Of a stretch of DNA of 64,000 nucleotides, positions 1,533 to 19,603 are shown one piece after another. This DNA is from an uncultured Selenomonas sp. (GTDB lineage: Bacteria > Bacillota > Negativicutes > Selenomonadales > Selenomonadaceae), in NCBI GenBank assembly GCA_934202005.1, contig CAKPXP010000008.1:11288-75287 (forward strand), read 5' to 3'. A program made the translations under genes and the position numbers. A model generated the notes under the pieces. That model saw nothing but the letters and a program-made list of their open reading frames with translations, searched no databases and was not told where the DNA came from. Within the stretch, counting starts at the first letter, position 1. Every line of letters starts with the position of its first letter.

Positions 1533-2564
1533 ATGATTATTACAAAGACTCCGTTTCGCATGTCGTTCTTCGGTGGCGGGACGGATATGAAGGAGTTTTA
1601 TGAGCAATATGGTGGAGCTGTTTTATCGACGACGTTCGATAAATACTGCTATGTGACAGTACGCCATTTGCCGCGCTTTTTCAAGTATACGAGTGAGTTT
1701 GCGTATGCGAATATTGAGCGCGTGACGGATGTGGATCAGATAGAGCATCCCTTGATCCGCAATCTGATGAAGTTCAAGGAGATGCATGAGATTCGTCTGT
1801 CTTATGAGGCAGATCTGCCAGCCCGTACGGGTCTTGGTACATCGTCCTCTTTTGCCGTGGGTATGCTGAATGCGTTCTATGGCATGAAAGGGAAGCGCGT
1901 GGACAAGCGCCGTCTTGCGGATGAGGCTATCTATGCGGAGCGTGTGCTCTGTAACGAGGCTGGCGGTATTCAGGATCAGATAGCGGCAGCTTTCGGCGGG
2001 CTGAACCGTATCGATATGTCGAGGGATGGCTACAAGGTTACGCCGGTCATCATCTCGAATCAGCGCAAGCGCGAGTTCAATGACAATCTCATGCTGTTCT
2101 TCACGGGCTTTTCTCGGTTCTCCTCAGATATCCAGAAGGGAACGAAGAAGAGTATGGCGGATAAGACGAAGCAGCTTCTCGAGATGAAGTCACTGGTCGA
2201 TCAGGCGGAGGATATCCTGACGGATGCTCATAGTGATCTCAATGAGTTCGGTCGTTTGCTCGATTATACATGGAAACTGAAACGTGGCATCTCTGCTGGT
2301 ATCTCGACGGACTCGATTGACGCGATTTACCAAAAGGCCATTGTGGCTGGTGCGACAGGGGGCAAGCTCCTCGGTGCGGGCGGCGGCGGATTTTTGCTTT
2401 TCTATGTGGAGCAGGACAAGCAGCCGCAGGTGATGAATGCGTTGCAGGATTTGCTCTATGTACCGTTCGAGTTCGAGAATGATGGAACACAGGTCGTTTA
2501 TTTCAAGGCTGAGGATTATGAGATTCCTGAGCGTTTCCAAACGGAAGGAGATAGTACGAAATGA
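1533..2564 (+). CDS. hddA: D-glycero-alpha-D-manno-heptose-7-phosphate kinase (GHMP kinase)
   Basis: This 343-residue GHMP-family kinase starts MIITKTPFRMSFFGGGTD, the typical HddA opening. The ATP-binding loop PARTGLGTSSSFAVG lies at about residues 97-110, and a C-terminal GATGGKLLGAGGGGF motif at about residues 270-285. It phosphorylates D-glycero-D-manno-heptose 7-phosphate at C1, giving the alpha-1,7-bisphosphate, in the GDP-heptose branch. The ATG at 1533 follows a strong GGGGGGAGA ribosome-binding site. Its stop overlaps the gmhA start in an ATGA, so the two are translationally coupled. The neighbours gmhA and hddC fix the pathway. Confidence 0.88.
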   Translation: MIITKTPFRMSFFGGGTDMKEFYEQYGGAVLSTTFDKYCYVTVRHLPRFFKYTSEFAYANIERVTDVDQIEHPLIRNLMKFKEMHEIRLSYEADLPARTGLGTSSSFAVGMLNAFYGMKGKRVDKRRLADEAIYAERVLCNEAGGIQDQIAAAFGGLNRIDMSRDGYKVTPVIISNQRKREFNDNLMLFFTGFSRFSSDIQKGTKKSMADKTKQLLEMKSLVDQAEDILTDAHSDLNEFGRLLDYTWKLKRGISAGISTDSIDAIYQKAIVAGATGGKLLGAGGGGFLLFYVEQDKQPQVMNALQDLLYVPFEFENDGTQVVYFKAEDYEIPERFQTEGDSTK

Positions 2565-3208
2565 AGGAGCAGGCAGAAGCACGCATCAAAGAGCTTGTCA
2601 CGCGGTATCCGAGTCTTAGCAGTCTGGAGGAGTCGCTGCGCGAGAGCGCGGAGCGACTGATTCGCTGCTACCGTACTGGTCATAAGATCATGGTCTGCGG
2701 CAATGGCGGCAGTGCGGCAGACGCGCTCCATATCGTGGGCGAGCTCATGAAGGCATTCGTTTGCAAGAGGGCGATTACTGAGGAGTGGCAGGAGAAGTTT
2801 GCGAAACTGCCAAATGGGGCATATATGAGCCGCAATCTGCAGATGGCGTTGCCAGCGATTTCCCTTGTGAGTGAGACAGGATTGCTGACAGCTTATGCGA
2901 ATGATGTGGCTCCGGATATGAATTTTGCGCAGCAGGTATTTGGCCAGGGAAGTGAGGGGGATGTCCTCATTGCGATCAGCACTTCGGGAAACTCGAAGAA
3001 CGTACTCTATGCAGCTGAGGTTGCTAGGGCCAAGTCGATTACGGTCATCGCCCTGACGGGACATGATGGCGGTAAGCTCAGGGACTATGCGGATGTATTG
3101 CTCAATGTGCCGGAAAAGGAAACGTTCAAGATACAGGAACTGCATCTGCCGGTCTATCATGCGCTGTGCCTCGCAGTCGAGGCCGAGTTCTATGGTGGGG
3201 CGGACTGA
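2561..3208 (+). CDS. gmhA: phosphoheptose isomerase (SIS domain)
   Basis: A 215-residue single SIS-domain protein. The motif CGNGGSAADALHIVGEL (about residues 46-62) is the sugar-phosphate-binding loop, and SGNSKNVLYA (about residues 145-154) is the second SIS loop. GmhA converts sedoheptulose 7-phosphate to D-glycero-D-manno-heptose 7-phosphate in the cytoplasm, the first committed step of nucleotide-heptose synthesis. At 215 residues it is longer than E. coli GmhA (192) and resembles the isomerases of GDP-heptose clusters. Start and stop overlap its neighbours (ATGA at 2561, TGATG at 3206), so hddA-gmhA-hddC is one coupled unit. Confidence 0.87.
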   Translation: MKEQAEARIKELVTRYPSLSSLEESLRESAERLIRCYRTGHKIMVCGNGGSAADALHIVGELMKAFVCKRAITEEWQEKFAKLPNGAYMSRNLQMALPAISLVSETGLLTAYANDVAPDMNFAQQVFGQGSEGDVLIAISTSGNSKNVLYAAEVARAKSITVIALTGHDGGKLRDYADVLLNVPEKETFKIQELHLPVYHALCLAVEAEFYGGAD

Positions 3209-3894
3209 TGGAGGCAATCATACTGGCTGGTGGCTTTGGCACGCGGCTGCAGACGGTGGTGTCTGATGTTCCCAAGCCGATGGCCCCCATGAATGATACG
3301 GGGAGACCCTTCCTCAGCGTCTTGCTGGAGAAATTGGCGGCAGATGGGGTGACGCATGTTGTCCTCTCAACGGGCTATATGAGTGAGGTCATCGAGCGAT
3401 TTTTCGGCAATGAGTATGCAGGGGTTCGTATCGATTATTCTGTTGAGGAGACACCGCTTTTTACTGGTGGTGCTGTGAAGCTGGCCCTGTCGAGATGTCA
3501 GGAGGAGACGGTCTTCGTATTGAATGGAGATACGTATTTCGATGTGAAGATGAATGACATGTGCCAGTTTCATGCCGATACAGGGGCGGATTTTACGGTT
3601 GCGGTCAAGAAGATGCATGATTTCGATCGTTATGGTACGGTTGAGGTGCAGGACGGTCGGATTGTATCTTTTCGAGAGAAAAGATACTGCGAGGATGGCT
3701 GGATCAATGGCGGTGTTTATTGTTTGCGTCGGTCGTTGCTGACAGATTTTCCGCTGACAAAATTTTCCTTGGAGAAAGATTTCATGGAGAAGAAACTGAC
3801 TGAAATGAAGATGGCCGCTTTTCCATCGTCGGGATATTTCATTGATATCGGTATACCGGAGGATTATGCGCTGGCGCGGAAAAAGTTTGGATGA
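3208..3894 (+). CDS. hddC: D-glycero-alpha-D-manno-heptose 1-phosphate guanylyltransferase (HddC-like nucleotidyltransferase)
   Basis: A 228-residue NTP-transferase. The N-terminus MEAIILAGGFGTRLQ carries the GGxGTRL nucleotide-binding loop, followed by DVPKPMAPM. VLNGDTYFDV (about residues 95-104) holds the metal-binding aspartate, and EKDFMEKKL and IDIGIPEDYA near the end are typical of sugar-1-phosphate nucleotidyltransferases. It should activate heptose 1-phosphate with GTP to give GDP-D-glycero-D-manno-heptose. The ATG at 3208 was chosen over the longer in-frame extension because it overlaps the gmhA stop and begins exactly at the conserved domain. The guanylyl specificity is inferred from linkage to hddA and gmhA. 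Confidence 0.82.
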   Translation: MEAIILAGGFGTRLQTVVSDVPKPMAPMNDTGRPFLSVLLEKLAADGVTHVVLSTGYMSEVIERFFGNEYAGVRIDYSVEETPLFTGGAVKLALSRCQEETVFVLNGDTYFDVKMNDMCQFHADTGADFTVAVKKMHDFDRYGTVEVQDGRIVSFREKRYCEDGWINGGVYCLRRSLLTDFPLTKFSLEKDFMEKKLTEMKMAAFPSSGYFIDIGIPEDYALARKKFG

Positions 3895-3918: not shown

Positions 3919-4818
3919 ATGAGATTAGGTGTCGTTATTCTCAACTATAAAAGCTATGATGTGACGCTGGATTGTCTTTCCAAGCTGGAGCGGCTGGAGC
4001 AGCTCGATGATATTGTCGTAGTGGATAATAACTCGCCGAATGCCTCATATCAGAGGCTGCAGGCAGCACAGCCGGGACATCGCTGGCATCTCCTGCAGTC
4101 GGGAGAGAACCGTGGATATTCGGCAGGGAATAACGTCGGCATTCGCTATCTCATGGAGCATACAGAGGATGACATCATCGGGATCGTGAATCCCGATGTT
4201 TGTTTTGATGGTGAGTTCCTGCGGCAGATTCGCGGGGCGTTTGCGGCACACGATGAGTATGCCGTCCTCACAGGTGTCCAGCACAGGCGAGACGGTAGTG
4301 TGAGCAATCGGTCATTCTGGCCGGAGCTGACGCGCTGGACGACGATACGTTCCAATCTCTGGTTTCTGAATAAACTCGCGAATCGCCAGACGGAGTATAA
4401 TATGCGCTTTGTTCGTGAGACGTTGTCACAGGCAGCAGGTCAGGATCTCGTCGAGGTTCCTGTGGTGGAAGGATGCTGTTTTTTTATGCGCAGATGTGCA
4501 TGGGAGCAGATCGGTCTGCTCGACGAGCGGATGTTTTTGTTCTTTGAAGAGGATATTCTCGCGTATCGCGTTCATCGTAAGGGATGGAAGATCGGTGTTC
4601 TGCCACAGACGGCGTTCCTCCATGATCACTCAACTACGCTCAAAAGTATCTATTCGAGTCTACAAACGGATCTGTTGCTGCTGAAGTCGCGAGGGAAATT
4701 CTATCGGCATTATTTGTCACGGGGATTTTTGGATGATTTGGCGTACGCGTTGTCGGTGGCTGTTTTTTATTTGGAAAAATGCGCGCTGGTTCCTTACCAT
4801 TGGCTGCGTGGGAAGTAA
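3919..4818 (+). CDS. glycosyltransferase family 2 (rhamnosyltransferase-like)
   Basis: A 299-residue GT-A fold glycosyltransferase. It starts MRLGVVILNYKSYDVTLDCL. VVVDNNSPNAS at about residues 34-44 and RGYSAGNNVGIRYL at about residues 64-77 bind the nucleotide sugar, and GIVNPDV (about residues 91-97) is the DxD-equivalent. VEGCCFFMRR and LFFEEDILAYRV, at about residues 186-225, are typical of the WcaA/rhamnosyltransferase group. It would act at the cytoplasmic membrane on the lipid-linked repeat unit. A GGAGAGCAG-like ribosome-binding site precedes the ATG. Donor sugar and linkage cannot be predicted. Confidence 0.82.
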   Translation: MRLGVVILNYKSYDVTLDCLSKLERLEQLDDIVVVDNNSPNASYQRLQAAQPGHRWHLLQSGENRGYSAGNNVGIRYLMEHTEDDIIGIVNPDVCFDGEFLRQIRGAFAAHDEYAVLTGVQHRRDGSVSNRSFWPELTRWTTIRSNLWFLNKLANRQTEYNMRFVRETLSQAAGQDLVEVPVVEGCCFFMRRCAWEQIGLLDERMFLFFEEDILAYRVHRKGWKIGVLPQTAFLHDHSTTLKSIYSSLQTDLLLLKSRGKFYRHYLSRGFLDDLAYALSVAVFYLEKCALVPYHWLRGK

Positions 4819-4837
4819 TCACAGAGGAGTGACACAA

Positions 4838-5925
4838 ATGGAGAAACTGAATTTCGCCTGTGCCTGGGGATATGGGGATATCAGGCAGAGCTGGTCGGGG
4901 ACGAACTATGGGCTGTATTCGCATCTGCAGAAATACTACGAGGTGGAGAATGTGAATACAGGAATATTTCACCGCGGCTGGCTGACGTTCCCCTTGCGTG
5001 TGGCGAGGAAACTGCACCGCGTGTTTGGCGGTGATGATATGGAAGTGTTGCGGATGCGTATGGCCAATCGTTTTGTGCGAACGCCTGGTGCGACGCTGCA
5101 GTTCGATGAGTGTCCGGCGGTTCATGGGGATGAGCGGCATTATATTTATCAGGATTTGTCCGTAGACTATGTGTTGAAAATGGCGACCTCGCTGCCGGAT
5201 GTGTTTGCGCATAGTGCCTATCAGCATATCCAGATGCCGAGAATCAAGGCGCGTGCCAGGATGCAGAATGCGTTCTACGCCAAGGCGGCGGGTATCTTTA
5301 CGATGGGCAAGTGGCTCGTGAAGGAACTAAAAGAGGACAAAAATATTTCTGTGAAAGACAAGGTATATCATGCAGGGGGGGTATCAACGTAGATGCCTCA
5401 TTAATTGGAAATTATGCACAGCGTCAAGGGAATAAAATCCTTTTCATCGGGCGGGATTTCGAGCGGAAGAACGGGCCTCTGGTTGTGGAGGCATTTCGTC
5501 TGCTGCGCGAGCGTCGGCCGGAGGTGGAGCTGTTCATCGCTGGGCCGGAGCATCTTCAGCTATCGGATGCGGGGATTCATCTGCTGGGCAATCTGCCGTA
5601 CCGTGAGTTGCCGCAGTATTTCAATCTATGCGATGTATTCTGCATGCCGTCGAAGTTCGAGGCGTATGGGCTGGTGTTCCCTGAGGCGCTCACGTTCGGG
5701 CTTCCTTGTATCGGCCGGGATGCCTATGAGATGCCGTACTTCATCGAGGACGGCGAGACGGGCTATCTGCTGCGGAGCGAGAGGAAGGAGGAACTGGCAG
5801 ACCTCATGGATCGGGCGCTTGGCAATCAGCAAATGGCTGCCAATGTTCGTGAGCGCCGGGAGTTCTATGTGCAGGAATATTCCTGGGATACGGTTGCGCG
5901 GCGCATCTATGAGGTGATTGGCTGA
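4838..5925 (+). pseudogene. glycosyltransferase family 4, split by a frameshift in a poly-G tract
   Basis: Two overlapping reading frames together make one GT-B glycosyltransferase of about 362 residues. The first (ATG 4838, ribosome-binding site GAGGAGTGA) carries the N-terminal half and ends at 5392. The second carries the C-terminal half through 5925, with LFIGRDFERKNGP, the CMPSKFEAYGLVFPEAL donor-binding motif and the RIYEVIG end. The frames join if the G run at 5375-5381 has eight G instead of seven (HAGG then INVDAS). As written the first half would give a 184-residue product without the donor-binding domain. The change may be phase variation, a real mutation or a homopolymer error in the assembly. 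Confidence 0.75.
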
Positions 5926-8329: not shown

Positions 8330-8896
8330 GTGAAAGCAACGGAAACGAAACTCAAGGGTGTCTATGTGCTGGAGCCGCAGGTGTTCGGCGATGCGCGCGG
8401 GTGGTTCATGGAGAGCTGGTCGAAGCGCAAGATGGAGGCGGCCGGGATCGCGGTGGATTTCGTGCAGGACAACCAGTCCTACTCGGCGCAGAAGGGCACG
8501 CTGCGCGGGCTGCACTATCAGCTCGACCCGATGAGCCAGGCAAAGCTCCTGCGCGCGACGCGCGGGGCGATCTTCGACGTGGCCGTCGACATCCGCAAGG
8601 GCTCGCCGCAGTTCGGCCAGTGGGTGGGCGTCGAGCTCTCGGCGGAGAACAAACGCCAGCTCTTCATCCCGCGCGGCTTCGCGCATGGATTCATCACGCT
8701 GACGGACGACGTCGAGGTCCAGTACAAGGCGGACAACTACTACGCGCCGGAGTGCGACGGCAACATCCGCTGGAACGATCCCGACATCGGCGTCGCCTGG
8801 CCCATCGAGCCCGTCATCCTGTCGGAAAAGGATACGAAGGCGCCGACGCTCAAGGAGCGCGTGGAGACGTCGCTGAACTTCGTGTATCAGGGGTGA
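8330..8896 (+). CDS. rfbC: dTDP-4-dehydrorhamnose 3,5-epimerase
   Basis: A 188-residue cupin epimerase. It starts KATETKLKGVYVLEPQVF and carries FVQDNQSYSAQKGTLRGLHYQ (about residues 43-63), with the active-site histidine in RGLHYQ. RGFAHGFITL follows at about residues 115-124, and DPDIGVAWPI near the end. It converts dTDP-4-dehydro-6-deoxyglucose to dTDP-4-dehydrorhamnose. GTG at 8330 was chosen over the in-frame TTG at 8324 because of homologue length and the nine-base spacing from AAAGGAGA. rfbA, rfbB and rfbD are not in the window and must lie elsewhere if dTDP-rhamnose is made. Confidence 0.92.
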   Translation: MKATETKLKGVYVLEPQVFGDARGWFMESWSKRKMEAAGIAVDFVQDNQSYSAQKGTLRGLHYQLDPMSQAKLLRATRGAIFDVAVDIRKGSPQFGQWVGVELSAENKRQLFIPRGFAHGFITLTDDVEVQYKADNYYAPECDGNIRWNDPDIGVAWPIEPVILSEKDTKAPTLKERVETSLNFVYQG

Positions 8897-9012
8897 GTGG
8901 CGGAGGGACTGCTTGGTACCGCGCGTGTGATGCGTTCACATGGCCTCACAGTCGACTACAGCGCAAAAGAGCGGCTGAGACATATCAGCATAGCGAGCAG
9001 GGAGGGTACAAA

Positions 9013-10290
9013 ATGAGACTCCAGATCAAGAACTTTGCTGCAATTCGAGAAGCTGATATCCAGTTTGACGGTATTACCGTGATTGCAGGCGAGAATAATG
9101 CCGGTAAGAGCACTGTGGGAAAGATACTTTTCTCTCTGTTCCATGGATTTTATAATATGAAGGAGAAGATTCAGAGCAATCGTTGGCAGGCCATCTCGAA
9201 CAAAATCTCTCAGGATATTGATGAGAACATGAACTTCACAAGTCAGTTGAATGGAGAACTTTCTGACGATAGATGGAGGTATCAACATCATCTTTTTAGG
9301 CAGTTTAAGAAAAAACATCCTCTTAATGAAGAGGAGTGTGTGGCCTTCATAGAAGATTATGTCAAAGATTTAGTGCAAGGAAAACTAAATGATTTTAGTG
9401 ATTTTCGAGCGTCAATTCGAAAGGATATTCGTTCGGTTTTTCAATATACGGATGCACAGATTCGGGATACAGTATTGACATCAGAATTTAATGATGTGTT
9501 TTCTCATCAGGCCAATTCCAAGCGAAATACCGATGCTGCCGATTTGCGACTGACAATAAAAGATAAAGTTGTTCATGTTGGCTTAAAAGATGAAACTTGT
9601 CAGGATGTTTCTTCTGAAATAAAAATCTTACATTCTGCTACCTACATTGATGATCCTTTTATCGTCGATAATCTCGTGGGACTTCATTTTTCTAACTGGA
9701 GAAATATCATGGTCGAGGATTTAAAGATAAAGATGCGGAAGTCCAGGGATATAGATCTTCTTTCTAAGCAGATACGGAAAGATCAAACGAAGGAAATCAT
9801 CAATAAACTTCATCAAGTGATTGATGGAGAATTTATCGAGACACGAGAGGGCCCGGTTTTCCACCAGATGGGCATGACAGATGACCTCTTGTTGCGTAAT
9901 CTATCAACTGGCCTGAAGGCATTCGCCATCATCAAGCGCCTGCTGGAATACCACAATCTCAATGAACAGGACGTTCTGATCCTCGACGAGCCAGAGATCC
10001 ACCTGCACCCAGAGTGGCAGCTCATCTATGCCGAGCTGATCGTGCTACTGCAAAAGGCATTCCACCTGACTGTCCTACTGACCACCCACAGCCCCTATTT
10101 CCTCGAGGCAATCGAGGTATTCTCGGCAAAGCATGGACTGGAGAAAGAGACAAAGTACTATCTGGCCCATAAGCAGGACGGCTACGCGGTCTTTGATGAC
10201 GTGACAGATGATACCGCCAGGATCTACCATCGCCTCGCTGAGCCATTTGATAAACTAGATGCAATAAAGCAGGGCAAAGGATGGTGTTGA
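9013..10290 (+). CDS. AAA/ABC-type ATPase of an ATPase-nuclease pair (RecF/OLD-like)
   Basis: A 425-residue SMC/RecF-type ATPase. Walker A is GENNAGKST at residues 26-34. A central helical region follows, then the signature-like LSTGLKAF (about 295-302), Walker B VLILDEPEIHLHPEW (about 320-334) and the H-loop LLTTHSPYFLEA (about 355-366). It has no obvious C-terminal Toprim domain, so it is not a full OLD nuclease. The ATG at 9013 has the ribosome-binding site GGAGGG; the frame is open far upstream through rfbC, but that part is a shadow. The next gene starts one base after its stop, so the two form an operon. ATPase-effector pairs of this layout are common in phage defence; that role is inferred. 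Confidence 0.75.
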   Translation: MRLQIKNFAAIREADIQFDGITVIAGENNAGKSTVGKILFSLFHGFYNMKEKIQSNRWQAISNKISQDIDENMNFTSQLNGELSDDRWRYQHHLFRQFKKKHPLNEEECVAFIEDYVKDLVQGKLNDFSDFRASIRKDIRSVFQYTDAQIRDTVLTSEFNDVFSHQANSKRNTDAADLRLTIKDKVVHVGLKDETCQDVSSEIKILHSATYIDDPFIVDNLVGLHFSNWRNIMVEDLKIKMRKSRDIDLLSKQIRKDQTKEIINKLHQVIDGEFIETREGPVFHQMGMTDDLLLRNLSTGLKAFAIIKRLLEYHNLNEQDVLILDEPEIHLHPEWQLIYAELIVLLQKAFHLTVLLTTHSPYFLEAIEVFSAKHGLEKETKYYLAHKQDGYAVFDDVTDDTARIYHRLAEPFDKLDAIKQGKGWC

Positions 10291-10291
10291 T

Positions 10292-10840
10292 ATGGCACCC
10301 GAAGAGATCTATCTGAACCATCGTTCGACGCTGAAACAAACCTCCTTTGACAGTGACAACAAAGTCTACATGGTGGAGGATGAGACGATACCCGTCTATG
10401 ATTATGATGATGTGATGGGAGCGTATTCGTCGCGAGAACATCTGCAATATACGCCTTGCTCGAATGATGCGCTGTATGTGGATGATGGGCATATCACCTT
10501 TATCGAGTTCAAGAATGGTAAGGTAAATCCGAAGAATATCATCCAGAAGGCATATGATAGTCTGCTCGTCCTTTTTGATCATGATATGGGCCTGGAGTGG
10601 CGGAGAACTGACTTCTGTGCGAACATCTCTTTTTCCCGACAGAACATCGACCTCATCGTAGTCTGGGATGATCCCGATGATGATCCGAGGACTGCCGCGA
10701 GGAATAAGATCAGCAATCACGTCAGAGGCAAAGGAAAGTTCGGCTTGAGCGAACTGAAACGGTATCTGTATAAAGATGTCCGTGTCATGTCAAAGGCAGA
10801 GTTCCAGCGTGAGTTTATCGAATATTTTTCTACTATTTGA
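10292..10840 (+). CDS. putative PD-(D/E)xK nuclease-like partner of the upstream ATPase
   Basis: A 182-residue protein not assigned to a named family by eye. Residues 58-77 read NDALYVDDGHITFIEFKNGK. The aspartate at 59 and the E72-x-K74 pair have the spacing of a PD-(D/E)xK nuclease core strand pair, and a helix with IIQKAYDSLLVLF follows. The C-terminal third (KFGLSELKRYLYKDVRVMSKAEF) is basic. The start lies one base after the ATPase stop, which argues for a functional pair in which ATP hydrolysis licenses a nuclease. This is an inference from motif and gene order. The reading could also be a non-catalytic partner. Confidence 0.55.
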   Translation: MAPEEIYLNHRSTLKQTSFDSDNKVYMVEDETIPVYDYDDVMGAYSSREHLQYTPCSNDALYVDDGHITFIEFKNGKVNPKNIIQKAYDSLLVLFDHDMGLEWRRTDFCANISFSRQNIDLIVVWDDPDDDPRTAARNKISNHVRGKGKFGLSELKRYLYKDVRVMSKAEFQREFIEYFSTI

Positions 10841-11325: not shown

Positions 11326-11469
11326 CGATATCTTCATGGGTAGGTGGACTGAAAGTCTACGGGGGGATTGTTTGCTGTAGAAATAGGCTTCGTAGATAAG
11401 GAGAAGGGGAATACATGATTGCTCAAACTGTACGGGCTGATCTTTTATGATGAGAAATAGGAGATTTTG

Positions 11470-12399
11470 ATGATTAAAAATGCGAACATTGGTGTGGTAT
11501 TAGTTACGTTTAATCGTTTGGAAAAGTTGAAAAAAACGCTAGAGTCTTATGCTGAGCAAACATTGTATCCGCAATATATCATTGTTGTGAATAACGCCTC
11601 TAATGATGGTACAACAGATTTTTTAGCGGAGTGGGAGAATGAGGCATCTCCTTATAAAAGGATTGTTATAAATCTTTCGCACAATCTTGGCGGTAGTGGT
11701 GGATACTATGCTGGTGAAAAAGAAGCGATAAAGTTGTCTGCTAGTTGGATTATGGTTGCAGATGATGATGCGTATCCGTCAGCAGACTACATTGAGGGAA
11801 TGGATTCTTTTATACAATCATACATTGGTGGCCGTTTAGCTGCTGTTTGTGGGAGCGTTGTTGAGAAGGGAAGCTATGCTTTGTGGCATAGACGCTTCAA
11901 ACGTAAGGGATTTTCTTTAGAGTACTCAGAAGTTACGAGACCGGAGGATTATCAGAAAAAAGATTTTGAGGTCTCATATATTTCATATGTAGGCCCTGTT
12001 ATGAATAAGGTCGCTTTACAGGAAGTAGGCTTGGTTGATAAAGACTTCTTCATATGGAACGATGATATCGAGCACATGCAGCGTCTGGGAAAATATGGAA
12101 AGATGTTTTGCGTTCCCCGCTATGAACTTCATCATGATGTCGATAGCCAGAACAGCGCGCTTTCCTGGAAATCGTATTACGGTCTCCGTAACAATTTAGT
12201 CCTTTTGAAACGATATTTTCCGTTACGGTTTCTCATCGTGCTGTCGTTGCTTACGGCAAAAGCAATTTTATGTCCGTTGAAAGGGAAATGTCTGCAAGAA
12301 ATGCGGTTGCGCTTGACCGCGATTAAAGATGGTCTGGTAGGAAATCTAGGTATTCATCCTGTTTATAAGCCTGGATGGTCTTTGAAAAAAAGCGTTTAA
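11470..12399 (+). CDS. glycosyltransferase family 2, galactofuranosyltransferase-like
   Basis: A 309-residue GT-A glycosyltransferase. It has VVLVTFNRLEKLKKTL at the N-terminus, VVNNASNDGT (about residues 37-46) and the metal-binding ADDDAY motif (about residues 97-102). IWNDDIEHMQRL (about residues 195-206) is the acceptor-side motif typical of GlfT2-like enzymes. It lies directly before glf, which makes UDP-galactofuranose, so transfer of Galf is the likely role. ATG 11470 was preferred to the in-frame TTG at 11467 because of the AGGAG six bases upstream. The gene is AT-rich relative to glf. Confidence 0.78.
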   Translation: MIKNANIGVVLVTFNRLEKLKKTLESYAEQTLYPQYIIVVNNASNDGTTDFLAEWENEASPYKRIVINLSHNLGGSGGYYAGEKEAIKLSASWIMVADDDAYPSADYIEGMDSFIQSYIGGRLAAVCGSVVEKGSYALWHRRFKRKGFSLEYSEVTRPEDYQKKDFEVSYISYVGPVMNKVALQEVGLVDKDFFIWNDDIEHMQRLGKYGKMFCVPRYELHHDVDSQNSALSWKSYYGLRNNLVLLKRYFPLRFLIVLSLLTAKAILCPLKGKCLQEMRLRLTAIKDGLVGNLGIHPVYKPGWSLKKSV

Positions 12400-12420: not shown

Positions 12421-13509
12421 ATGTACGATTATCTGATTGTAGGCAGCGGCCTTTTTGGCGCGGTCTTTGCGCATGAGGTGAAGCGGGCGGGGAAGTCTGT
12501 GCTGGTGTTGGAGCGTCGCGGGCATGTCGGCGGCAATGTCTACTGCGAGGAAAAGGATGGCATCAACATCCACAAGTATGGCGCGCACATTTTCCACACG
12601 AGCTATGAGGAGGTCTGGGCGTATGTCAACCAGTTCGTGAAGTTCAACAACTTCATCAATTCGCCGGTAGCGAACTATCAGGGACATCTCTACAATCTGC
12701 CGTTCAATATGAACACGTTCCGTGAGCTCTGGGATATCGTGACGCCAGCGCAGGCGAAGGCCATCATCGCGGAGCAGCGCCAGGTCATCAAGGGTGAACC
12801 GCGGAATCTCGAGGAGCAGGCCATCTCGCTCGTCGGCACGGATATCTATACGAAGCTCATCAAGGGCTATACGGAGAAGCAATGGGGCCGCAGCTGCACG
12901 GAGCTGCCCGCTTTCATTATCAAGCGCCTGCCGGTGCGCTATACGTTCGATAACAATTATTTCAATGACCGCTATCAGGGCATCCCGGTCGGCGGCTACA
13001 ACAAGCTGATTGATGCGCTGCTCGACGGCATCGAGGTTCGCACAGGCGTTGATTTCCTCAAGGAGCGCGCGCCCTATCAGGCGATGGCCAAGAAGGTTGT
13101 CTATACTGGCTCGATTGACGAGTATTTCGATTACAAGCTCGGCCAGCTCGAGTACCGTGGCCTGCGCTTCGAGACGGAGCGTCTGGAGGAGGAAAACCAT
13201 CAGGGTGTCGCTGTCGTCAATTATACGGAGCGTGAGATCCCCTACACGCGCATCATCGAGCACAAACACTTCGAGTTCGGCACGCAGCCTGTCACCTACA
13301 TCACACGCGAATACCCCGCCGACTGGCATCCGGGCGAAGAAGCCTATTATCCCATCAACAACGAACGCAACCAGAGCCTCTATCAGCAGTACGCAGCCCT
13401 TGCAGAGCAAGAGCCCAATACCATCTTCGGTGGGCGGCTGGCAGAGTATAAGTACTATGATATGGATGACGTGATCAAGAGTGCGTTGTCTATATGGAAA
13501 TCTATCTAA
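12421..13509 (+). CDS. glf: UDP-galactopyranose mutase
   Basis: A 362-residue flavoprotein. The FAD-binding motif GSGLFGAVFAHE lies at residues 8-19 and LERRGHVGGNVYCE at about residues 31-44. YGAHIFHTS (about residues 55-63) and EKQWGRSCTELPAFIIKRLPVR (about residues 152-173) are characteristic. It converts UDP-galactopyranose to UDP-galactofuranose through a flavin-iminium intermediate. The ribosome-binding site is GGAGGA. The gene is clearly GC-richer than its neighbours on both sides, so the cassette itself is a mosaic. It supplies the donor for the adjacent family 2 transferase. Confidence 0.95.
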   Translation: MYDYLIVGSGLFGAVFAHEVKRAGKSVLVLERRGHVGGNVYCEEKDGINIHKYGAHIFHTSYEEVWAYVNQFVKFNNFINSPVANYQGHLYNLPFNMNTFRELWDIVTPAQAKAIIAEQRQVIKGEPRNLEEQAISLVGTDIYTKLIKGYTEKQWGRSCTELPAFIIKRLPVRYTFDNNYFNDRYQGIPVGGYNKLIDALLDGIEVRTGVDFLKERAPYQAMAKKVVYTGSIDEYFDYKLGQLEYRGLRFETERLEEENHQGVAVVNYTEREIPYTRIIEHKHFEFGTQPVTYITREYPADWHPGEEAYYPINNERNQSLYQQYAALAEQEPNTIFGGRLAEYKYYDMDDVIKSALSIWKSI

Positions 13510-13564: not shown

Positions 13565-14495
13565 ATGTTACAAGCAATAAAAAAACCATTTCGTCCTATC
13601 AAACGCTGGTTGAAAGAAAACAGAGGGAAGACACTGTTTTGAAGATAGGCGTAAAGGCGAAAAAACATTAGTATTGGTTATTGCTGGGTATAAGCCGTAT
13701 TTATATCAAAATGTATTTAGCCGTATAAAGGCTTTTGTACCGGGGGGGGTGGATGTATGTATCGTCTCATCGGGCTTATATGATAAGAGGCTAAGTGAAA
13801 TTGCCTCCAATAATGATTGGTCGTATTTAAGCCTTAAGAGGAATTGTGTCACTTTAGCTCAAAATATAGCAATTCTTTATCATCCTAAAGCTGAGTATAT
13901 TTATAAATTAGACGAAGATATATTCGTGACAAAGAATTCTTTTGATATGTTAAAACAAACATATCAAAGGGTTCGTGATGAAGGTCTCTATGATATTGGT
14001 TTTGTGGCACCATTGATTCCTATAAATGGGTATGGACATCTTAGAATCCTTGATAAATTAGGTATGATAGAGTTCTATGAAAAAAGATTTGAACGTGTAA
14101 AATATGCAAGTTATCCAACTCGCATGGTAGAAAAAGATCCTCGTGTAGCTCGGTTCTTTTGGGGCGAAGGGGGATATATTCCTTCGATAGACGAATTGAG
14201 CGAACGGTTTGGTAATGAAGCTTTTTCATACCGTCCTTGCCCAATACGATTTTCAATAGGGTGCATTCTTTTCTCACGTAAAACATGGCAGGATATGGGG
14301 ATGTGGAATGTTCCGCTTCGTGGATCTGGAATGGGTGCTGATGAAGCACAGATTTGTTCGTACGCCATAGTACAATCTCAAGCAATTATTGTCTCAGAAA
14401 ATACGGTGGTTGGTCATCTGTCTTTTGGACAGCAAAATGAATCGATGAAAGTTTTTTATCAAAACCATCCTGAGATTTTCTCCTTAGGAAAGTAG
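13565..14495 (+). pseudogene. putative GT-A glycosyltransferase with a frameshift after codon 25
   Basis: An ATG at 13,565 with the ribosome-binding site AAGGAG opens a frame (MLQAIKKPFRPIKRWLKENR) that hits TGA at 13,640. If the TTTT at 13,637-13,640 is three T, it runs on as KTLFEDRRKGEKTLVLVIAGYK into the long frame that continues to 14,495. The rebuilt protein is about 309 residues with YKLDEDIFVTKNSF, a DxD-like metal site, and GMGADEAQICSYA. The remaining frame alone could start only at a TTG (13,674) without a ribosome-binding site. The family is not recognised with certainty. It may be intact in the organism if the extra T is an assembly error. Confidence 0.6.
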
Positions 14496-14501
14496 AGTTT
14501 T

Positions 14502-15950
14502 ATGAAAAATAGTGTCCTTAGAAATTACATATACAACTTAAGCTATCAAATTTTGACGTTGATAACACCTTTTATAACTACACCCTATTTGTCACGTGTT
14601 TTGGGCCCTGATGGTATCGGTCTATATAGTTATACAACCTCAATTGTCTCATATTTTATATTGTTAGCATCTATGGGGGTTAGCGATTATGCTCAACGAG
14701 AGATAGCTTATCATCAAAATGATAGGTATATTCAAAGCAGAACTTTTTTTGAAGTACTAGGGATACGAAATGTTCTAGTTGTTATTAGTCTAGTATCATA
14801 TTATTTATTTCTTACACAGGTAGAAAGTGACCATACTATTTACTGGATACAGGCCATTAATATTATTGCGGTCCTGTTTGATATAACATGGTTCTTTCAG
14901 GGCTTAGAAGAGTTTGGGAAGATTGTTGCTCGAAACTTTCTTGTCAGGATAGTAAATATCGTTGCAATCTTTGTCTTCATACACAATCCATCAGATTTGA
15001 ATTTGTATATCTTTTTGATAGGATTTATGAATGTTGTTTCAGGATTGTCGATTTGGCTCTATTTGCCTAAATATCTTGTTCATGTTGAGCGTAAAGATAT
15101 TCGCCCATTTCGTAACTTCCTGATTATTATACAGCTCTTTTTACCACAGATTGCTATTCAGATATATACAGTTTTAGATAAAACGATGATTGGCGTTATC
15201 ACAGCATCTCCAGCGCAGAATGGCTACTATGAACAAGCTGAAAAGATAGTAAAGATGACATTGATGGTAGTTACTTCTTTAGGAACGGTTATGATTCCGA
15301 GGATTGCGTCGTCTTATGCAAATGGCGATATTGCGATGATACGTCATTACATCATGCGATCGTATCGTTTTGTATGGTTGGTTGCTTTACCAATGATGTT
15401 TGGTTTAATCGGGATAATCGATCAAGTTATACCTTGGTTCTTTGGACCTGGATATGGACCTGTTGGCATCCTTGTTAAGGTATTCAGTGGGCTTCTGTTA
15501 GCAATCGGAATCAATAATGTCACAGGTGTACAGTTTTTGATTCCGATAAACAAACAAAATATATTCACACTCACTGTCTTGATTGGCGCGGTATTAAATT
15601 TTGTCTTAAATCTAGTTCTGATACCGATATTCATGTCTTTAGGAGCAGCTATTGCATCAGTAACAGCAGAAACGGTAATAGCACTGGTTCAGTTCCATTT
15701 TGTAAAGGAATATTTTTCTTTAATAGATGTATTATCTATTTCGATAAAATATTTTCTTTGTAGTCTGATAATGTTTTTTGTGTTAGAAATTGTTCAATTT
15801 CTTATGGGTTATCCATCCAGTATTTTGAGTACTATGTCCCTTGTGCTTATTGGGTGTATAATATACGGAATTTTGCTTTTTATATGGAAAGATTCTTTCT
15901 TTTTGGAAACTATGGAGAAAATTCTAGGAAAGGTGCGTGCTAAGTTATGA
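14502..15950 (+). CDS. wzx: oligosaccharide flippase (Wzx family)
   Basis: A 482-residue MATE/MOP-superfamily protein with about 12 to 14 hydrophobic segments. The N-terminus includes LSYQILTLITPFITTPYLSR and DGIGLYSYTTSIVSYF, characteristic of RfbX/Wzx, and GVSDYAQREIAY follows. It flips undecaprenyl-diphosphate-linked repeat units across the inner membrane for the Wzy-dependent pathway. Its stop overlaps the start of the glycyl radical enzyme (ATGA at 15,947), so the flippase and that enzyme are translationally coupled. The gene is strongly AT-rich. Confidence 0.88.
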   Translation: MKNSVLRNYIYNLSYQILTLITPFITTPYLSRVLGPDGIGLYSYTTSIVSYFILLASMGVSDYAQREIAYHQNDRYIQSRTFFEVLGIRNVLVVISLVSYYLFLTQVESDHTIYWIQAINIIAVLFDITWFFQGLEEFGKIVARNFLVRIVNIVAIFVFIHNPSDLNLYIFLIGFMNVVSGLSIWLYLPKYLVHVERKDIRPFRNFLIIIQLFLPQIAIQIYTVLDKTMIGVITASPAQNGYYEQAEKIVKMTLMVVTSLGTVMIPRIASSYANGDIAMIRHYIMRSYRFVWLVALPMMFGLIGIIDQVIPWFFGPGYGPVGILVKVFSGLLLAIGINNVTGVQFLIPINKQNIFTLTVLIGAVLNFVLNLVLIPIFMSLGAAIASVTAETVIALVQFHFVKEYFSLIDVLSISIKYFLCSLIMFFVLEIVQFLMGYPSSILSTMSLVLIGCIIYGILLFIWKDSFFLETMEKILGKVRAKL

Positions 15951-17992
15951 GCATAAAAAAGATGGGCAAGCATGTGATAAAAAAGATTATTTTAACAACA
16001 GATTATGGTCGACGTGCTTTTTTCCTTAGGGAGATTCGAGGAAAAGATATTCGTATGGGGAAAAGTAAAGATAATAAGTGGAAATATTTATTTGAAAATA
16101 TTCATAGAGTACATGTATATACTGGCAAGGACTCCGGTAGGGCGATTGGGAATATGTTAAAACATATTCCCATCGAAGTCAATAAAACCGATAATTTCTT
16201 TTATTACATTGATGAGAAGTCAACATGGGAGCATTCATTCGGACTATATGGTAATACTACCGTAGATTATGATCGTTTGCTAAAAGAATCCCTATCTACT
16301 ATTCGTTTACAAGGTAATGATAGTTATTCGACTAGAAATAGAATCTTTATTGATGCTCTGATTCAGTATGTACATAGAGCTGTAGCAATGATTCGTTCGT
16401 CAGATAATCCTCAAAGAGAATTGATTGAAAAAACTATGTTATCCATGGAAAACCGTCCGGCACAGTCTTTCTATGAATCAATTCAGAGAATCTTGTTCGT
16501 GAATCAAATTCTATGGCAAACTGGCCATATGTTGAATGGCTTGGGGAATCTTGATATGCTTCTCTATCCATACTATAAGCATGATATAGATTCTGGTACT
16601 TTATCTAGAGATCAGGCGTATGCTTATCTGAAAGAGTTTTGTACTATTCTACATCGTAACTATGAATATAAAAGTGCGTGCCTCTTAGGCGATACAGGAC
16701 AGATTATTCTCTTAGGAGGAACTGATGAATCTGGTCGGTATACGTATAATGAATTGACCCATCTCTTTATAAGTGTTATTCAAGAATTGTCATTGCCAGA
16801 TCCTAAAATCTTGCTTAAGGTGGCTCAAGATATGCCTGATTCGCTTTTGGGAGAGGGTGTTGATTGTATGGCTACAGGGATTGGTAGCCCGTTGCTAGCG
16901 AATAGCGATGTCATCATTCCTGCAATGACAAAATATGGATATCAGTTAGATGATGCAAGACATTATGCGGTCGCTGCATGTTGGGAGCCTCTAGTTCCAG
17001 GTAGTATATCTGATGCCAATAATGTCAGATCGTTAAATTATGTGGAACCCCTTTTGCAAGTACTTGATGATTATAACAGTCAATATGATACCTTCGATAT
17101 ACTTTTTGATAAATATAAATCATCCTTAAAATCGTATGTACTCGGAGAGGTTAAGGATGTTGAAGATACTCTTAAGATAAATGAAGATGTTGTGATGTCG
17201 ACCTTTATGAATGATTGCGACCTTCGTAAAAAAGATATTACAGAAGGTGGTGCTCGATATAATAATATTGGCTTCACAGGAGCTGGTCTTGGTTGCGCCA
17301 TCAACTCTTTAATAAATATCCGCGACTATATATTCGCAAAGAAAAAATATACAATAGATGAACTGAAAGTGGCATTGAATAATGATTTCCAGAAGGAATC
17401 AGAGATGCAAAAGACTTTTCAAGATAATCCAAGAAAATATGGTCGTGACATGAGTGATGTGATTGAATTGACACATTCTGTAATTGACACAGTTAATTCA
17501 GTTATCGAAGAATGCAGAAATCCATTGGGGGGGAGGTATAAGTTCGGTGTGAGTGCGCCTTCTTATATCGATTTAGGAAAGATTACAAAAGCTACACCGG
17601 ATGGGAGACATGCAGGACAACCATTTTCTCCGCATATTTCATGTGCAGACGGTGTTGCATACACAGAACTATTGCAGTTTGCAGGGAAGTTAGATTACAC
17701 GGGCTGCAGATTTAATGGTAATGTGACTGATTTTATGATTACACCATCGTTCTTGAAGCAAAATAGAGATAAGTTTATCTTGTTTTTGAAGCAGAGCATA
17801 AAATTAGGTTTTTTCGAAATGCAGATGAATGTAGTAGACAGTAAAACTCTTATTGCTGCTCGGAAGAATCCAGATGCATTCCCTAACTTGATTGTACGTG
17901 TTTGGGGGTTCAGTGCATACTTTAAGGATCTTCCAGATGAGTATAAAGATTTGCTGATTGAACGTGCAGTTAAGGCAGAGATGGCAGCATGA
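15947..17992 (+). CDS. glycyl radical enzyme (pyruvate formate-lyase-like) in a polysaccharide locus
   Basis: A 681-residue glycyl radical enzyme. The C-terminal loop RVWGFSAYF carries the predicted radical glycine at about residue 654, where the family shows RVxGY/FS. The thiyl cysteine is C345 in AACWEPLVPG. The CxE pattern fits eliminase-, dehydratase- or decarboxylase-type members rather than pyruvate formate-lyase, which has two adjacent cysteines. KFGVSAPSY and TPDGRHAGQPFSPHIS (about residues 527-565) are further family motifs. It is shorter than typical members (about 760-850), mainly in the N-terminal part. It overlaps wzx and its activase by 4 bp on each side. The substrate is unknown; an anaerobic sugar or glycan-precursor modification is inferred from context. 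Confidence 0.85.
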   Translation: MSIKKMGKHVIKKIILTTDYGRRAFFLREIRGKDIRMGKSKDNKWKYLFENIHRVHVYTGKDSGRAIGNMLKHIPIEVNKTDNFFYYIDEKSTWEHSFGLYGNTTVDYDRLLKESLSTIRLQGNDSYSTRNRIFIDALIQYVHRAVAMIRSSDNPQRELIEKTMLSMENRPAQSFYESIQRILFVNQILWQTGHMLNGLGNLDMLLYPYYKHDIDSGTLSRDQAYAYLKEFCTILHRNYEYKSACLLGDTGQIILLGGTDESGRYTYNELTHLFISVIQELSLPDPKILLKVAQDMPDSLLGEGVDCMATGIGSPLLANSDVIIPAMTKYGYQLDDARHYAVAACWEPLVPGSISDANNVRSLNYVEPLLQVLDDYNSQYDTFDILFDKYKSSLKSYVLGEVKDVEDTLKINEDVVMSTFMNDCDLRKKDITEGGARYNNIGFTGAGLGCAINSLINIRDYIFAKKKYTIDELKVALNNDFQKESEMQKTFQDNPRKYGRDMSDVIELTHSVIDTVNSVIEECRNPLGGRYKFGVSAPSYIDLGKITKATPDGRHAGQPFSPHISCADGVAYTELLQFAGKLDYTGCRFNGNVTDFMITPSFLKQNRDKFILFLKQSIKLGFFEMQMNVVDSKTLIAARKNPDAFPNLIVRVWGFSAYFKDLPDEYKDLLIERAVKAEMAA

Positions 17993-18750
17993 GCGATAAA
18001 ATTTTAGTAGGGAATATACAGCGCTTCTCATTACATGATGGCCCAGGGATACGTACGACCGTTTTTTTGCTAGGCTGTGGCATCCACTGCCCTTGGTGTG
18101 CAAATCCTGAAAACCTTCTTATGAAGCAACGACACTATCCAGATGCCGAAAGTATATACGGTCGTTATTATACTTCGGATGAATTGCTGAATGAGATTTT
18201 AGCCGACGAGATCTTCTTTGTCGATGGGGGTGGGATAACCTTTTCAGGAGGTGAAGCATTATTATCGGCGCCTCGATTGGTAGATGTTTGGGAAAAACTA
18301 AAAAGACGTTCTATCAATATAGCTGTGGAAACATCTTTATTTGTACCAGAAGAGTATTTATCATTAACAGACGGATTGATAGATTTATATATGGTAGATG
18401 TTAAAATCCTTGTTCCTGAGATGTGTAAGAATATATTAGGTGGCGATATAAATTTATATCGACGAAACTTTTCATGGATTAGGCGCAAAAATAAAAATAT
18501 GATTTTACGTTTTCCTATGGTTAATCCAGATACGATTAATAATGAAAATATAGGACTACTTATTGATTTTTTAAATGAATTCTCTGTGAAAAAAATACAA
18601 ATTTTTCCTATACATAATCTAGGAAAAAGTAAATATCAAAATCTTGGAGAAGTATATCATGAATATGTACCTATAGAAAACGAGAAGGTCGCAGAATTAA
18701 AAGAAAAATTGGCATCTTTAGGGATACAATGTGAGTCTTTAAAAATATAG
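17989..18750 (+). CDS. glycyl radical enzyme activase (radical SAM, PflA-like)
   Basis: A 253-residue radical SAM protein. The motif HDGPGIRTTVFLLGC then GIHCPWCANPE gives the CxxxCxxC cluster at about residues 30-37. FSGGEALLS (about 86-94) is the SAM-binding GGE motif, and DLYMVDVKI (about 130-138) is typical of activases. It abstracts hydrogen from the glycine of the partner enzyme using S-adenosylmethionine. It lacks the extra cysteine-rich ferredoxin insert found in activases of most non-PFL enzymes, so it resembles the minimal PflA type. The ATGA overlap at 17,989 couples it to the enzyme gene. It is the last gene of the AT-rich cassette. Confidence 0.9.
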   Translation: MSDKILVGNIQRFSLHDGPGIRTTVFLLGCGIHCPWCANPENLLMKQRHYPDAESIYGRYYTSDELLNEILADEIFFVDGGGITFSGGEALLSAPRLVDVWEKLKRRSINIAVETSLFVPEEYLSLTDGLIDLYMVDVKILVPEMCKNILGGDINLYRRNFSWIRRKNKNMILRFPMVNPDTINNENIGLLIDFLNEFSVKKIQIFPIHNLGKSKYQNLGEVYHEYVPIENEKVAELKEKLASLGIQCESLKI

Positions 18751-18751
18751 C

Positions 18752-19603
18752 ACCTATACGTCCAAGTACTGGGGTACGCGGGCGGAGGAGCTCAGTACGA
18801 CTTGGTGCAGTGGCCGTATCTATCAGCCGTCGCTGCGAGAGGTGCTGTTCGGCTCGTATCCTGATGCGGATGCATCGGCGAATGTCTATTATGCCAAGGA
18901 GATGCGCTATCCGAAGCAGGGCGGCTACCGTGCTTTCGTGCAGAGGGTGGCTGAGCAGCTGGATATCCGCTACGGCTGGGAGGTCTGCGCGATCGATACG
19001 GAGGCGAAGGTGCTGCATTTCACGAATGGCGAGCAATATGCGTATGATGAGCTCATCAGCACGATGCCGCTGCCGGAGATCCTGCCGCTCGTCTGTGATG
19101 ATGAGCAGGTACTGGAGGAGGCCGCGCAGCTCGCGGCGACGTCGATGGCACTGGTATCCGTCGGGTTCCGCAGGGAGATTGCCCCGCCGGCACTTTGGTT
19201 CTATGTCTATGATGAGGATATCCCGTTCGCTCGCGTGCATTCGCCTAGCATGAAATCTGCCTGGAACGCACCGCAAGGCAAGAGCTCGTTGCAGTTCGAG
19301 GTGTACTATAGCGAGGAGATGCCACTTGCTTATAACGATGGTGAGCTGCAGGAAAAGGTTTTGCAGTCCATGGAACGCATGGGGCTGGCTACGCGGGATG
19401 ATGTCGAGGTCATCGATGTGCGCCATGTGAAGTATGCCAATGTCATCTTCTATCAGGGGATGGAGCAGCACCGCGATGTGGTCTTGCAATATCTCGCGTC
19501 GAAGGGCATTCACTCCTGTGGTCGGTTTGGCAGATGGGACTATCTCTGGAGTCATCAGAGCTTCGTGTCCGGCGTGGAGGCGGTGAAGCGGATTGAAGAC
19601 TGA
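18752..19603 (+). pseudogene. N-terminally truncated FAD-dependent amine-oxidase-like gene
   Basis: An open frame beginning just after the activase stop (TYTSKYWGTRAEELSTTWCS and onward) runs to 19,603. It encodes about 283 residues of the C-terminal part of an NAD(P)/FAD-binding amine oxidase of the kind found in polysaccharide loci, with YPKQGGYRAFVQ and GRFGRWDYLWSHQSF. The N-terminal GxGxxG FAD-binding domain is missing, and no start codon with a ribosome-binding site precedes the homologous part. The first possible internal start is GTG 18,842. The GC-rich composition contrasts sharply with the AT-rich activase ending one base earlier, so this is the right edge of an insertion or replacement. 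Confidence 0.7.

Follow-up and report, generated by a model that had tools for sequence, protein, structure and literature searches.

A glycyl radical enzyme (GRE) encoded next to a wzx flippase gene in 64,000 nucleotides of DNA from an uncultured Selenomonas sp. (the whole of this stretch is referred to as the window) belongs to a separate clade of short GREs whose linkage to surface-glycan loci is strong and, in our judgement, very probably real. The initial annotation of the window had proposed an anaerobic radical step on a glycan building block; our analysis supports this proposal and extends it to a recurrent and distinct GRE branch residing in glycan clusters. At the level of sequence, a dedicated role in glycan assembly is suggested by intact catalytic motifs, the overlap with wzx, the isolation of the clade and the fact that all readable neighbourhoods are glycan loci.

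The window locus and its glycyl radical enzyme

Features of the locus are collected in Table 1. The Wzy-like gene is the upstream part of the same glycan region as the GRE, and the window Glf would supply UDP-galactofuranose. Both 4-bp ATGA overlaps described in the initial annotation, one between wzx and the GRE gene and one between the GRE and activase genes, were found, suggesting that the three genes are translationally coupled.

Table 1. Coordinates of the genes and gene overlaps in the window
Feature	Coordinates	Strand	Details
Oligosaccharide repeat-unit polymerase-like (Wzy-like)	17-1465	+	TIGR04370 34.3 bits, below cut-off 40
GT2 glycosyltransferase	11467-12399	+	PF00535; top NCBIfam match GlfT1, 72.7 bits, below cut-off 330
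UDP-galactopyranose mutase (Glf)	12421-13509	+	PF03275 273.3 bits
GTx4, GT-A-fold glycosyltransferase without Pfam family, recurrent partner	13674-14495	+	
Wzx-type flippase, directly 5′ of the GRE	14502-15950	+	PF01943 108.2 bits
ATGA overlap, wzx stop/GRE start	15947-15950	+	
Glycyl radical enzyme (GRE), 681 aa	15947-17992	+	Cys345 thiyl, CxE Glu347, Gly654 radical; glycan-linked short clade
ATGA overlap, GRE stop/activase start	17989-17992	+	
Radical SAM GRE activase, 253 aa	17989-18750	+	TIGR02494 above cut-off; one CxxxCxxC

The window cassette has a GC content of 0.393 versus ~0.57 on both flanks, and by this contrast it looks acquired. The shift in GC lies at ~18750. Right after the activase, positions 18751-19603 hold the C-terminal remnant of an amine-oxidase-like (PRK07208-type) gene with its N-terminal half missing; no counterpart of this right-flank remnant turned up among 60 relatives in a search run without a positive control, and the resident allele was not seen there. 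Inside the cassette, Glf (12421-13509) has a GC3 of 0.744 versus 0.30-0.39 in its neighbours, so that the cassette is itself a mosaic. The frame of the GTx4 gene (13565-14495) differs near its start from that of P0121 (97% identical, 312 aa), the open part being 273 aa from 13674. A GT4-type glycosyltransferase at 4733-5925 is possibly split across two overlapping ORFs, Glycos_transf_1 being matched only by the second (5311-5925). The best matches of three genes at 1533-3894 are to HddA, GmhA-type isomerases and HddC, which belong to GDP-D-glycero-D-manno-heptose synthesis, each match being under its equivalog cut-off. After RmlC in the glycan region, an AAA_21/AbiEii-like ATPase is followed by a 182-aa protein without a family (8401-10840), possibly a defence-like pair.

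The GRE is complete, as had been claimed: a script placed C345 and E347 in a CWE motif and G654 in RVWG. Its PFL-like and C-terminal Gly_radical domains both exceed curated Pfam cut-offs (PF02901, 235.7 bits, 1.6e-69, cut-off 24.3; PF01228, 46.6 bits, 5.3e-12, cut-off 22.2), which places the protein in the GRE superfamily. The thiyl Cys345 and the radical Gly654 are each kept in 105/105 rows of alignment A1, the profile of which was used to search further genomes (a clade-level match being 677 bits or more). Glu347 of the CxE motif is kept in 104 of these 105 homologues, P0050 being the exception, and this is in line with the elimination or dehydration type of chemistry read from the motif at the outset. 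The short length noted for the protein is real and common to the whole clade; despite it, residues 33-681 of the AlphaFold model (mean pLDDT 94.7, pTM 0.93) align to full-length GREs in a structure comparison. Intact motifs and a confident model are compatible with a catalytically competent enzyme. Structural matches to PflD, diol dehydratases and CutC lie within a Z spread of less than 2 units, so that structure does not single out a sugar substrate; the best PDB sequence match is 8id0.

The window GRE reaches no NCBIfam equivalog cut-off (bits/cut-off: HypD 207.5/1100, CutC 181.9/1050, HpsG 181.1/1000, HpfG 177/1000, IAD 143.3/1100, HPAD 141.4/1150, PFL 55/994.2) and scores 266.1 of 678.2 bits with the subfamily model TIGR01774. 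Matches to isethionate sulfite-lyase and benzylsuccinate synthase are of general sequence and fold only. Against PHROGs, the GRE matched only low-scoring families of unknown function, and the activase matched radical SAM families.

The overlapping downstream gene encodes the cognate activase, which has a Radical_SAM domain with a C30-x3-C34-x2-C37 motif, only 5 Cys in total and no ferredoxin-type motif, and which scores 209.7 bits with TIGR02494, the general GRE-activase subfamily (cut-off 174.35). Its description as PflA-like stands in part: the nearest PDB sequence is PFL-AE (8fo0, 6.5e-22), but the NCBIfam PFLA equivalog is missed (128.1 of 231.75 bits) and TIGR02494 is the only such model passed. 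CxxxCxxC is present in 41/41 clade activases and CxxCxxC in 0/41 (counted at 200-400 aa), whereas the latter motif occurs in 11/12 activases of the sister clade described below; it is also found in 12/17 other activase-like proteins. In 31 of 44 non-window clade loci the activase ORF, taken from its first possible start, begins no more than 60 bp from the end of the GRE, usually overlapping it. The activase of L001 is in two pieces, with intact copies elsewhere, and a 746-aa ORF in L086 (11911-14151) matches both a GT2 reference and the activase profile, a possible fusion.

A rare and patchy clade of short enzymes

The GRE clade is rare and patchy. A protein search that scored 7,994 candidates yielded 355 relatives with E <= 1e-3, of which the best 120 range from 100% to about 40% identity, and 27 loci came from scanning genome contigs. 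Among 100 relatives of the window's genome, 66 have some GRE match; the best one listed has 31% identity over residues 160-678 within a 793-aa frame, partial segments reach 39%, and no clade-like GRE is among the matches listed. Searches with A1 gave clade-level matches in 11/397 genomes from the family of a Lachnospiraceae-titled centre, 8/287 from the order of a Clostridia-titled centre, 3/395 from the class of a Tenericutes-titled MAG (a class that also holds a Bacilli-titled MAG) and 1/299 of a phylum sample, the single one being the centre itself; these rates lean upward because the centres were chosen for holding the gene.

Mobile or viral spread of the GRE was considered and set aside: one scan of viral contigs gave 17 pattern matches with 0 confirmed by tblastn, and plasmids (120 records) and phages (22 records) gave only matches below 60% identity, the 8 listed of each being at 22-28%. 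One contig holds two clade GREs ~10.7 kb apart (L124, 7827-9854; L125, 5988-8021). Interrupted clade GREs are seen in L018, L022 and L063, with intact copies elsewhere, and the GRE of L088 lies within a 988-aa ORF.

In a tree of 98 rows, a single branch (SH-aLRT 100) separates the 51 glycan-clade rows from all others, and their stem measures 1.52 changes per column. Seventeen sister rows group together (99), and the union of the glycan and sister groups, supported at 99, excludes the 30 other GREs. These others include PflD, YbiW, three HypD, two CutC, E. coli PflB and a pair of rows that we call PFL since they cluster with E. coli PflB; NCBIfam cut-offs are the basis of the CutC and HypD labels. 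E. coli PflD and YbiW sit among other long GREs, outside the glycan and sister group. A second tree, built with another alignment and another model and leaving out four rows (three PFLs and the long row L052), gave 100 for the glycan clade, 100 for the sister clade and 100 for their union of 68 rows. A tree had been suggested from the start as a check; ours, which held no isethionate sulfite-lyase or benzylsuccinate synthase sequences, place the GRE in a separate clade and not with PFL, CutC, HypD, PflD or YbiW rows. The long stem of the clade may hide a change of reaction. L122 is a deep member with a long branch, and where it belongs inside the clade is uncertain. The sister rows (L072, L076, L080-L082, L095-L104, L123 and L126) are mostly Lachnospiraceae with short GREs and no name; they were picked on their profile scores (358-452 bits, plus one each at ~372 and ~376), ahead of any reading of their context.

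The clade offers a short list of clade-specific residues, together with a minimal gene set. At R181, Q191, H236, N358, H563, N592 and D595, at least 50 of the 51 glycan rows agree, and no sister, other or named row has these residues; K242 is a further glycan-clade position, also present in 3/10 named rows. Shared by the glycan and sister rows are two tryptophans, W346 of CWE and W653 of RVWG (68/68, against 0/20 other and 0/10 named GREs), as well as D249, K287, A344 and N359 (68/68) and N103 (67/68), all five of which are absent in 20/20 other and 10/10 named GREs. Q252 and Y540 are common to both groups, yet they are also found in 8/20 and 3/20 other GREs. H194 was rejected as the counterpart of glycerol dehydratase H281, since HMMER pairs it nearby, MAFFT shifts it, and the position is Arg in 4/51 rows.

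Glycan neighbourhoods of clade loci

We annotated 45 clade loci over a range of 8.5 kb using HMMs built on genes of the window and the L loci, the majority of which Pfam had identified, and counted the 36 loci whose two flanks each reach 3 kb or more. Glycan genes (GT2, Wzx, Glf, GTx4 or WbsX) lie within 8.5 kb in 36/36 counted loci and in the visible part of the nine loci with short flanks (L002, L003, L007, L013, L019, L021, L025, L026 and L119), giving 45/45 for a set of readable neighbourhoods that excludes 12 of the 51 clade rows, P0002-P0013, the window's nearest relatives. The same genes were found in 0/11 sister and 0/13 other GRE loci (0/24 controls), a comparison in which the neighbour HMMs, seeded from clade loci and the window, could favour matches there, and in which the 13 other loci were annotated by these HMMs only, the independent Pfam scan covering 20 sister-neighbour proteins. 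One of 12 sister and two of 15 other loci had been dropped, and L154 was unused. Fisher's test of clade versus control loci, treated as independent, gives p 2.8e-17, which is only a guide because of kinship among the loci (L117 nearly duplicates L118, and L124 lies on the same contig as L125). Thus, the survey proposed in the initial annotation reveals a recurring polysaccharide linkage.

The activase is present in 35 of the 36 counted loci, GT2 in 33, Wzx in 20, GTx4 and R140 in 13 each, Glf in 11, a CTP-transferase-like gene in 6, WbsX in 5, TIM in 2 and LicD in 1. In most clade loci the GRE gene lies against a wzx, GT or activase gene, either overlapping it or separated by a short gap. Within window-like groups, Wzx is next to the GRE in most loci; a further group, rich in Lachnospiraceae, has R140 (130-175 aa) just 5′ of the GRE and no Wzx in view. 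Five R140 proteins that were scanned gave only sub-threshold PglD_N/NAD-binding matches in some and none in two. The deep member L122 has the order GT2-GLF-WZX-GRE-ACT, which is that of the window minus the extra GT.

Glf was seen within 8.5 kb at 18/45 clade loci and not at 27/45. The 18 comprise one subclade in full (13/13 of its tree rows), three fragment loci outside the tree, the window and L122. Genome-wide, Glf is found in 22/24 clade genomes versus 181/200 family controls, which is not above the family baseline. Galactofuranose as a universal substrate was rejected, given that Glf is near only part of the clade loci.

Unannotated neighbours were clustered by similarity, which may split distant members. 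Beyond the activase, GTs, Wzx, Glf, R140 and the CTP-transferase-like set (6 loci), no neighbour cluster occurs in more than 5/45 loci, and the idea of a dedicated partner enzyme for the GRE was discarded on this ground. Ten cluster representatives comprise eight glycan-type proteins (DUF4422 presumably being one such type), one AAA/PD-(D/E)XK protein and one without a family. At L008 (13983-19391), L009 and L010, the genes 3′ of the GRE and activase encode cytidylyltransferase-like proteins, one of which has a weakly methyltransferase-like portion, and TIM barrels similar to xylose isomerase; they may form another pathway to an unusual sugar.

The Pfam scan of sister neighbours (20 proteins, 6 of 12 loci) found no glycosyltransferase or flippase. 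Sugar-catabolism genes occur in 4/6 scanned loci (L095, L099, L103 and L104): regulators of the rpiR-SIS and LacI types, components of ABC transporters, kinases (one FGGY, one ADP-PFK/GK-like), aldolases (DeoC and class II), aldo-keto reductases, a zinc alcohol dehydrogenase and a protein resembling gluconolactonases. One protein matched a biotin-lipoyl model only and three had no family; the single gene scanned at each of L101 and L102 (2/6 loci) is a DNA methyltransferase. By analogy with the anhydrohexitol route of YbiW/PflD, the sister clade may break down sugars or polyols through a route that includes an aldolase.

Proposed reaction, alternatives and comparison with known enzymes

GREs are oxygen-sensitive radical enzymes, and known examples such as PFL, CutC, HypD, diol dehydratases, HPAD, anhydrohexitol lyases and class III RNR serve catabolism, fermentation or nucleotide reduction. 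In literature titles and abstract openings, with subscription papers sparsely covered, we found no GRE of surface-glycan synthesis. We favour, with somewhat better than even confidence, a GRE dedicated to surface-glycan assembly, an anaerobic C-O eliminase (dehydratase-type) that edits a sugar before export by Wzx. The substrate is likely a sugar, a reading preferred over other products because of the sugar-catabolism genes at sister loci, and the enzyme probably alters a chain sugar under anoxia.

GRE catalysis proceeds from a SAM radical through a glycyl radical, a cysteine thiyl and a substrate radical to loss of the beta-oxygen with Glu as the base. In the window enzyme, the activase and SAM would under anoxia put a radical on Gly654, which would generate the thiyl radical on Cys345; this would take H from a hydroxyl-bearing sugar carbon, and with Glu347 as the base the neighbouring (beta) oxygen would leave, either as a hydroxyl (dehydration) or as the ring oxygen (as in YbiW/PflD). 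A nucleotide sugar or an undecaprenyl-linked sugar at the cytoplasmic face may be the substrate, turned into a deoxy-keto, deoxy-aldehydo or ring-opened unit that Wzx would then export. The GRE and activase may travel as a cassette between glycan loci. Since no other modifying enzyme recurs widely, the GRE product would be used directly by a transferase or finished by a housekeeping enzyme; the absence of a recurring partner is odd for a deoxysugar pathway needing one.

More tentatively, at a little under even confidence, we suggest a new reaction class, in which a GRE would dehydroxylate or ring-open a nucleotide- or undecaprenyl-linked sugar in the cytoplasm with no redox cofactor, the Galf 5,6-diol being the candidate substrate in Glf loci. 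With the glycyl radical route and no redox cofactor, surface-glycan structure would then depend on the absence of oxygen. Elimination at the exocyclic Galf diol in Glf-bearing loci is a guess: this diol is a terminal 1,2-diol like that of glycerol and would give a 5-deoxy-6-aldehydo furanose. If true, radical elimination would be added to the bacterial routes to rare sugars, surface glycans of gut and rumen anaerobes would be tied to oxygen, and glycans beyond the known sugar-nucleotide pathways could be explained.

Most characterised GREs are CxE eliminases of small substrates, and the window enzyme could instead supply a non-sugar substituent for the glycan, e.g., from glycerol phosphate, ribitol phosphate, choline or an amino acid. 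LicD-type genes near L003, L005, L013 and L018 and cytidylyltransferase-like genes near L008-L010, L012, L024 and L027 would fit such a supplier. We consider it unlikely given that these genes are so infrequent in the counted loci (1/36 and 6/36, respectively), that neither was found near the window GRE, and that sister loci point to sugars. The acquired look of the window cassette and the catabolic look of sister neighbours agree with a sugar-scavenging or sugar-degrading enzyme that sits in glycan loci merely through frequent recombination there. This is improbable in view of the glycan clusters at every counted clade locus, the close packing of the GRE with wzx, GT or activase genes in most of them, and the absence of any recurring kinase, aldolase or transporter cluster among the neighbours examined.

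We give little credence to a decaying or horizontally stranded locus whose GRE is non-functional in its host: the deviating GTx4 start frame, the truncated amine-oxidase-like gene on the right flank and the broken GRE copies at L018, L022 and L063 could be taken as signs of decay, whereas GRE, activase and wzx have open, overlapping frames, and C345, E347 and G654 are preserved, as is CxxxCxxC in the activase. Some relatives bear the source name formate C-acetyltransferase, which would suit a PFL-like enzyme feeding acetyl-CoA or formate to glycan acylation, but A344-C345 and E347 stand in place of Cys-Cys and the PFL equivalog score is far below its cut-off, making such an enzyme highly improbable.

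The favoured sugar eliminase has relatives to be compared with. Sugar-acting GREs exist: according to PMC12441222, where Ma et al. are cited, YbiW and PflD cleave anhydrohexitol 6-phosphates. The PDB titles of 8id0 and 8id7 name anhydrohexitol-phosphate ligands. PflD and YbiW, which open the rings of 1,5-anhydromannitol- and 1,5-anhydroglucitol-6-phosphate, are catabolic, have 765-810 aa, lie on separate tree branches and share 23-26% identity with the window GRE over the structural alignment; the motifs are AVAACWEPL and RVWGFS in the window GRE versus SVVGCVELS and RVAGYS in PflD. B12-independent glycerol/1,2-propanediol dehydratases (1r8w, 5i2g) are alike in having CxE, with C345-W346-E347 falling on GCVEP of 1r8w (C433 and E435). 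They differ in that D447 of GWHD, presumably the substrate-binding aspartate, aligns by HMMER with Asn359, which is Asn in 51/51 clade rows, and the N-terminal region is shorter in the window GRE. In alignment with E. coli PflB, the Cys-Cys pair of PFL contrasts with A344-C345 plus E347. PFL-AE (8fo0, 3c8f), which we take to be a minimal radical SAM activase without a ferredoxin-type motif, resembles the window activase in this make-up; it differs in serving another GRE type, and the window protein falls below the PFLA equivalog cut-off. The sister short GREs (663-706 aa, except one 784-aa ORF) share CWE, RVWG, N103, D249, K287 and N359 with the window GRE and differ in their activase motif and in R181, Q191, H236 and D595, which are found in 0/17 of them.
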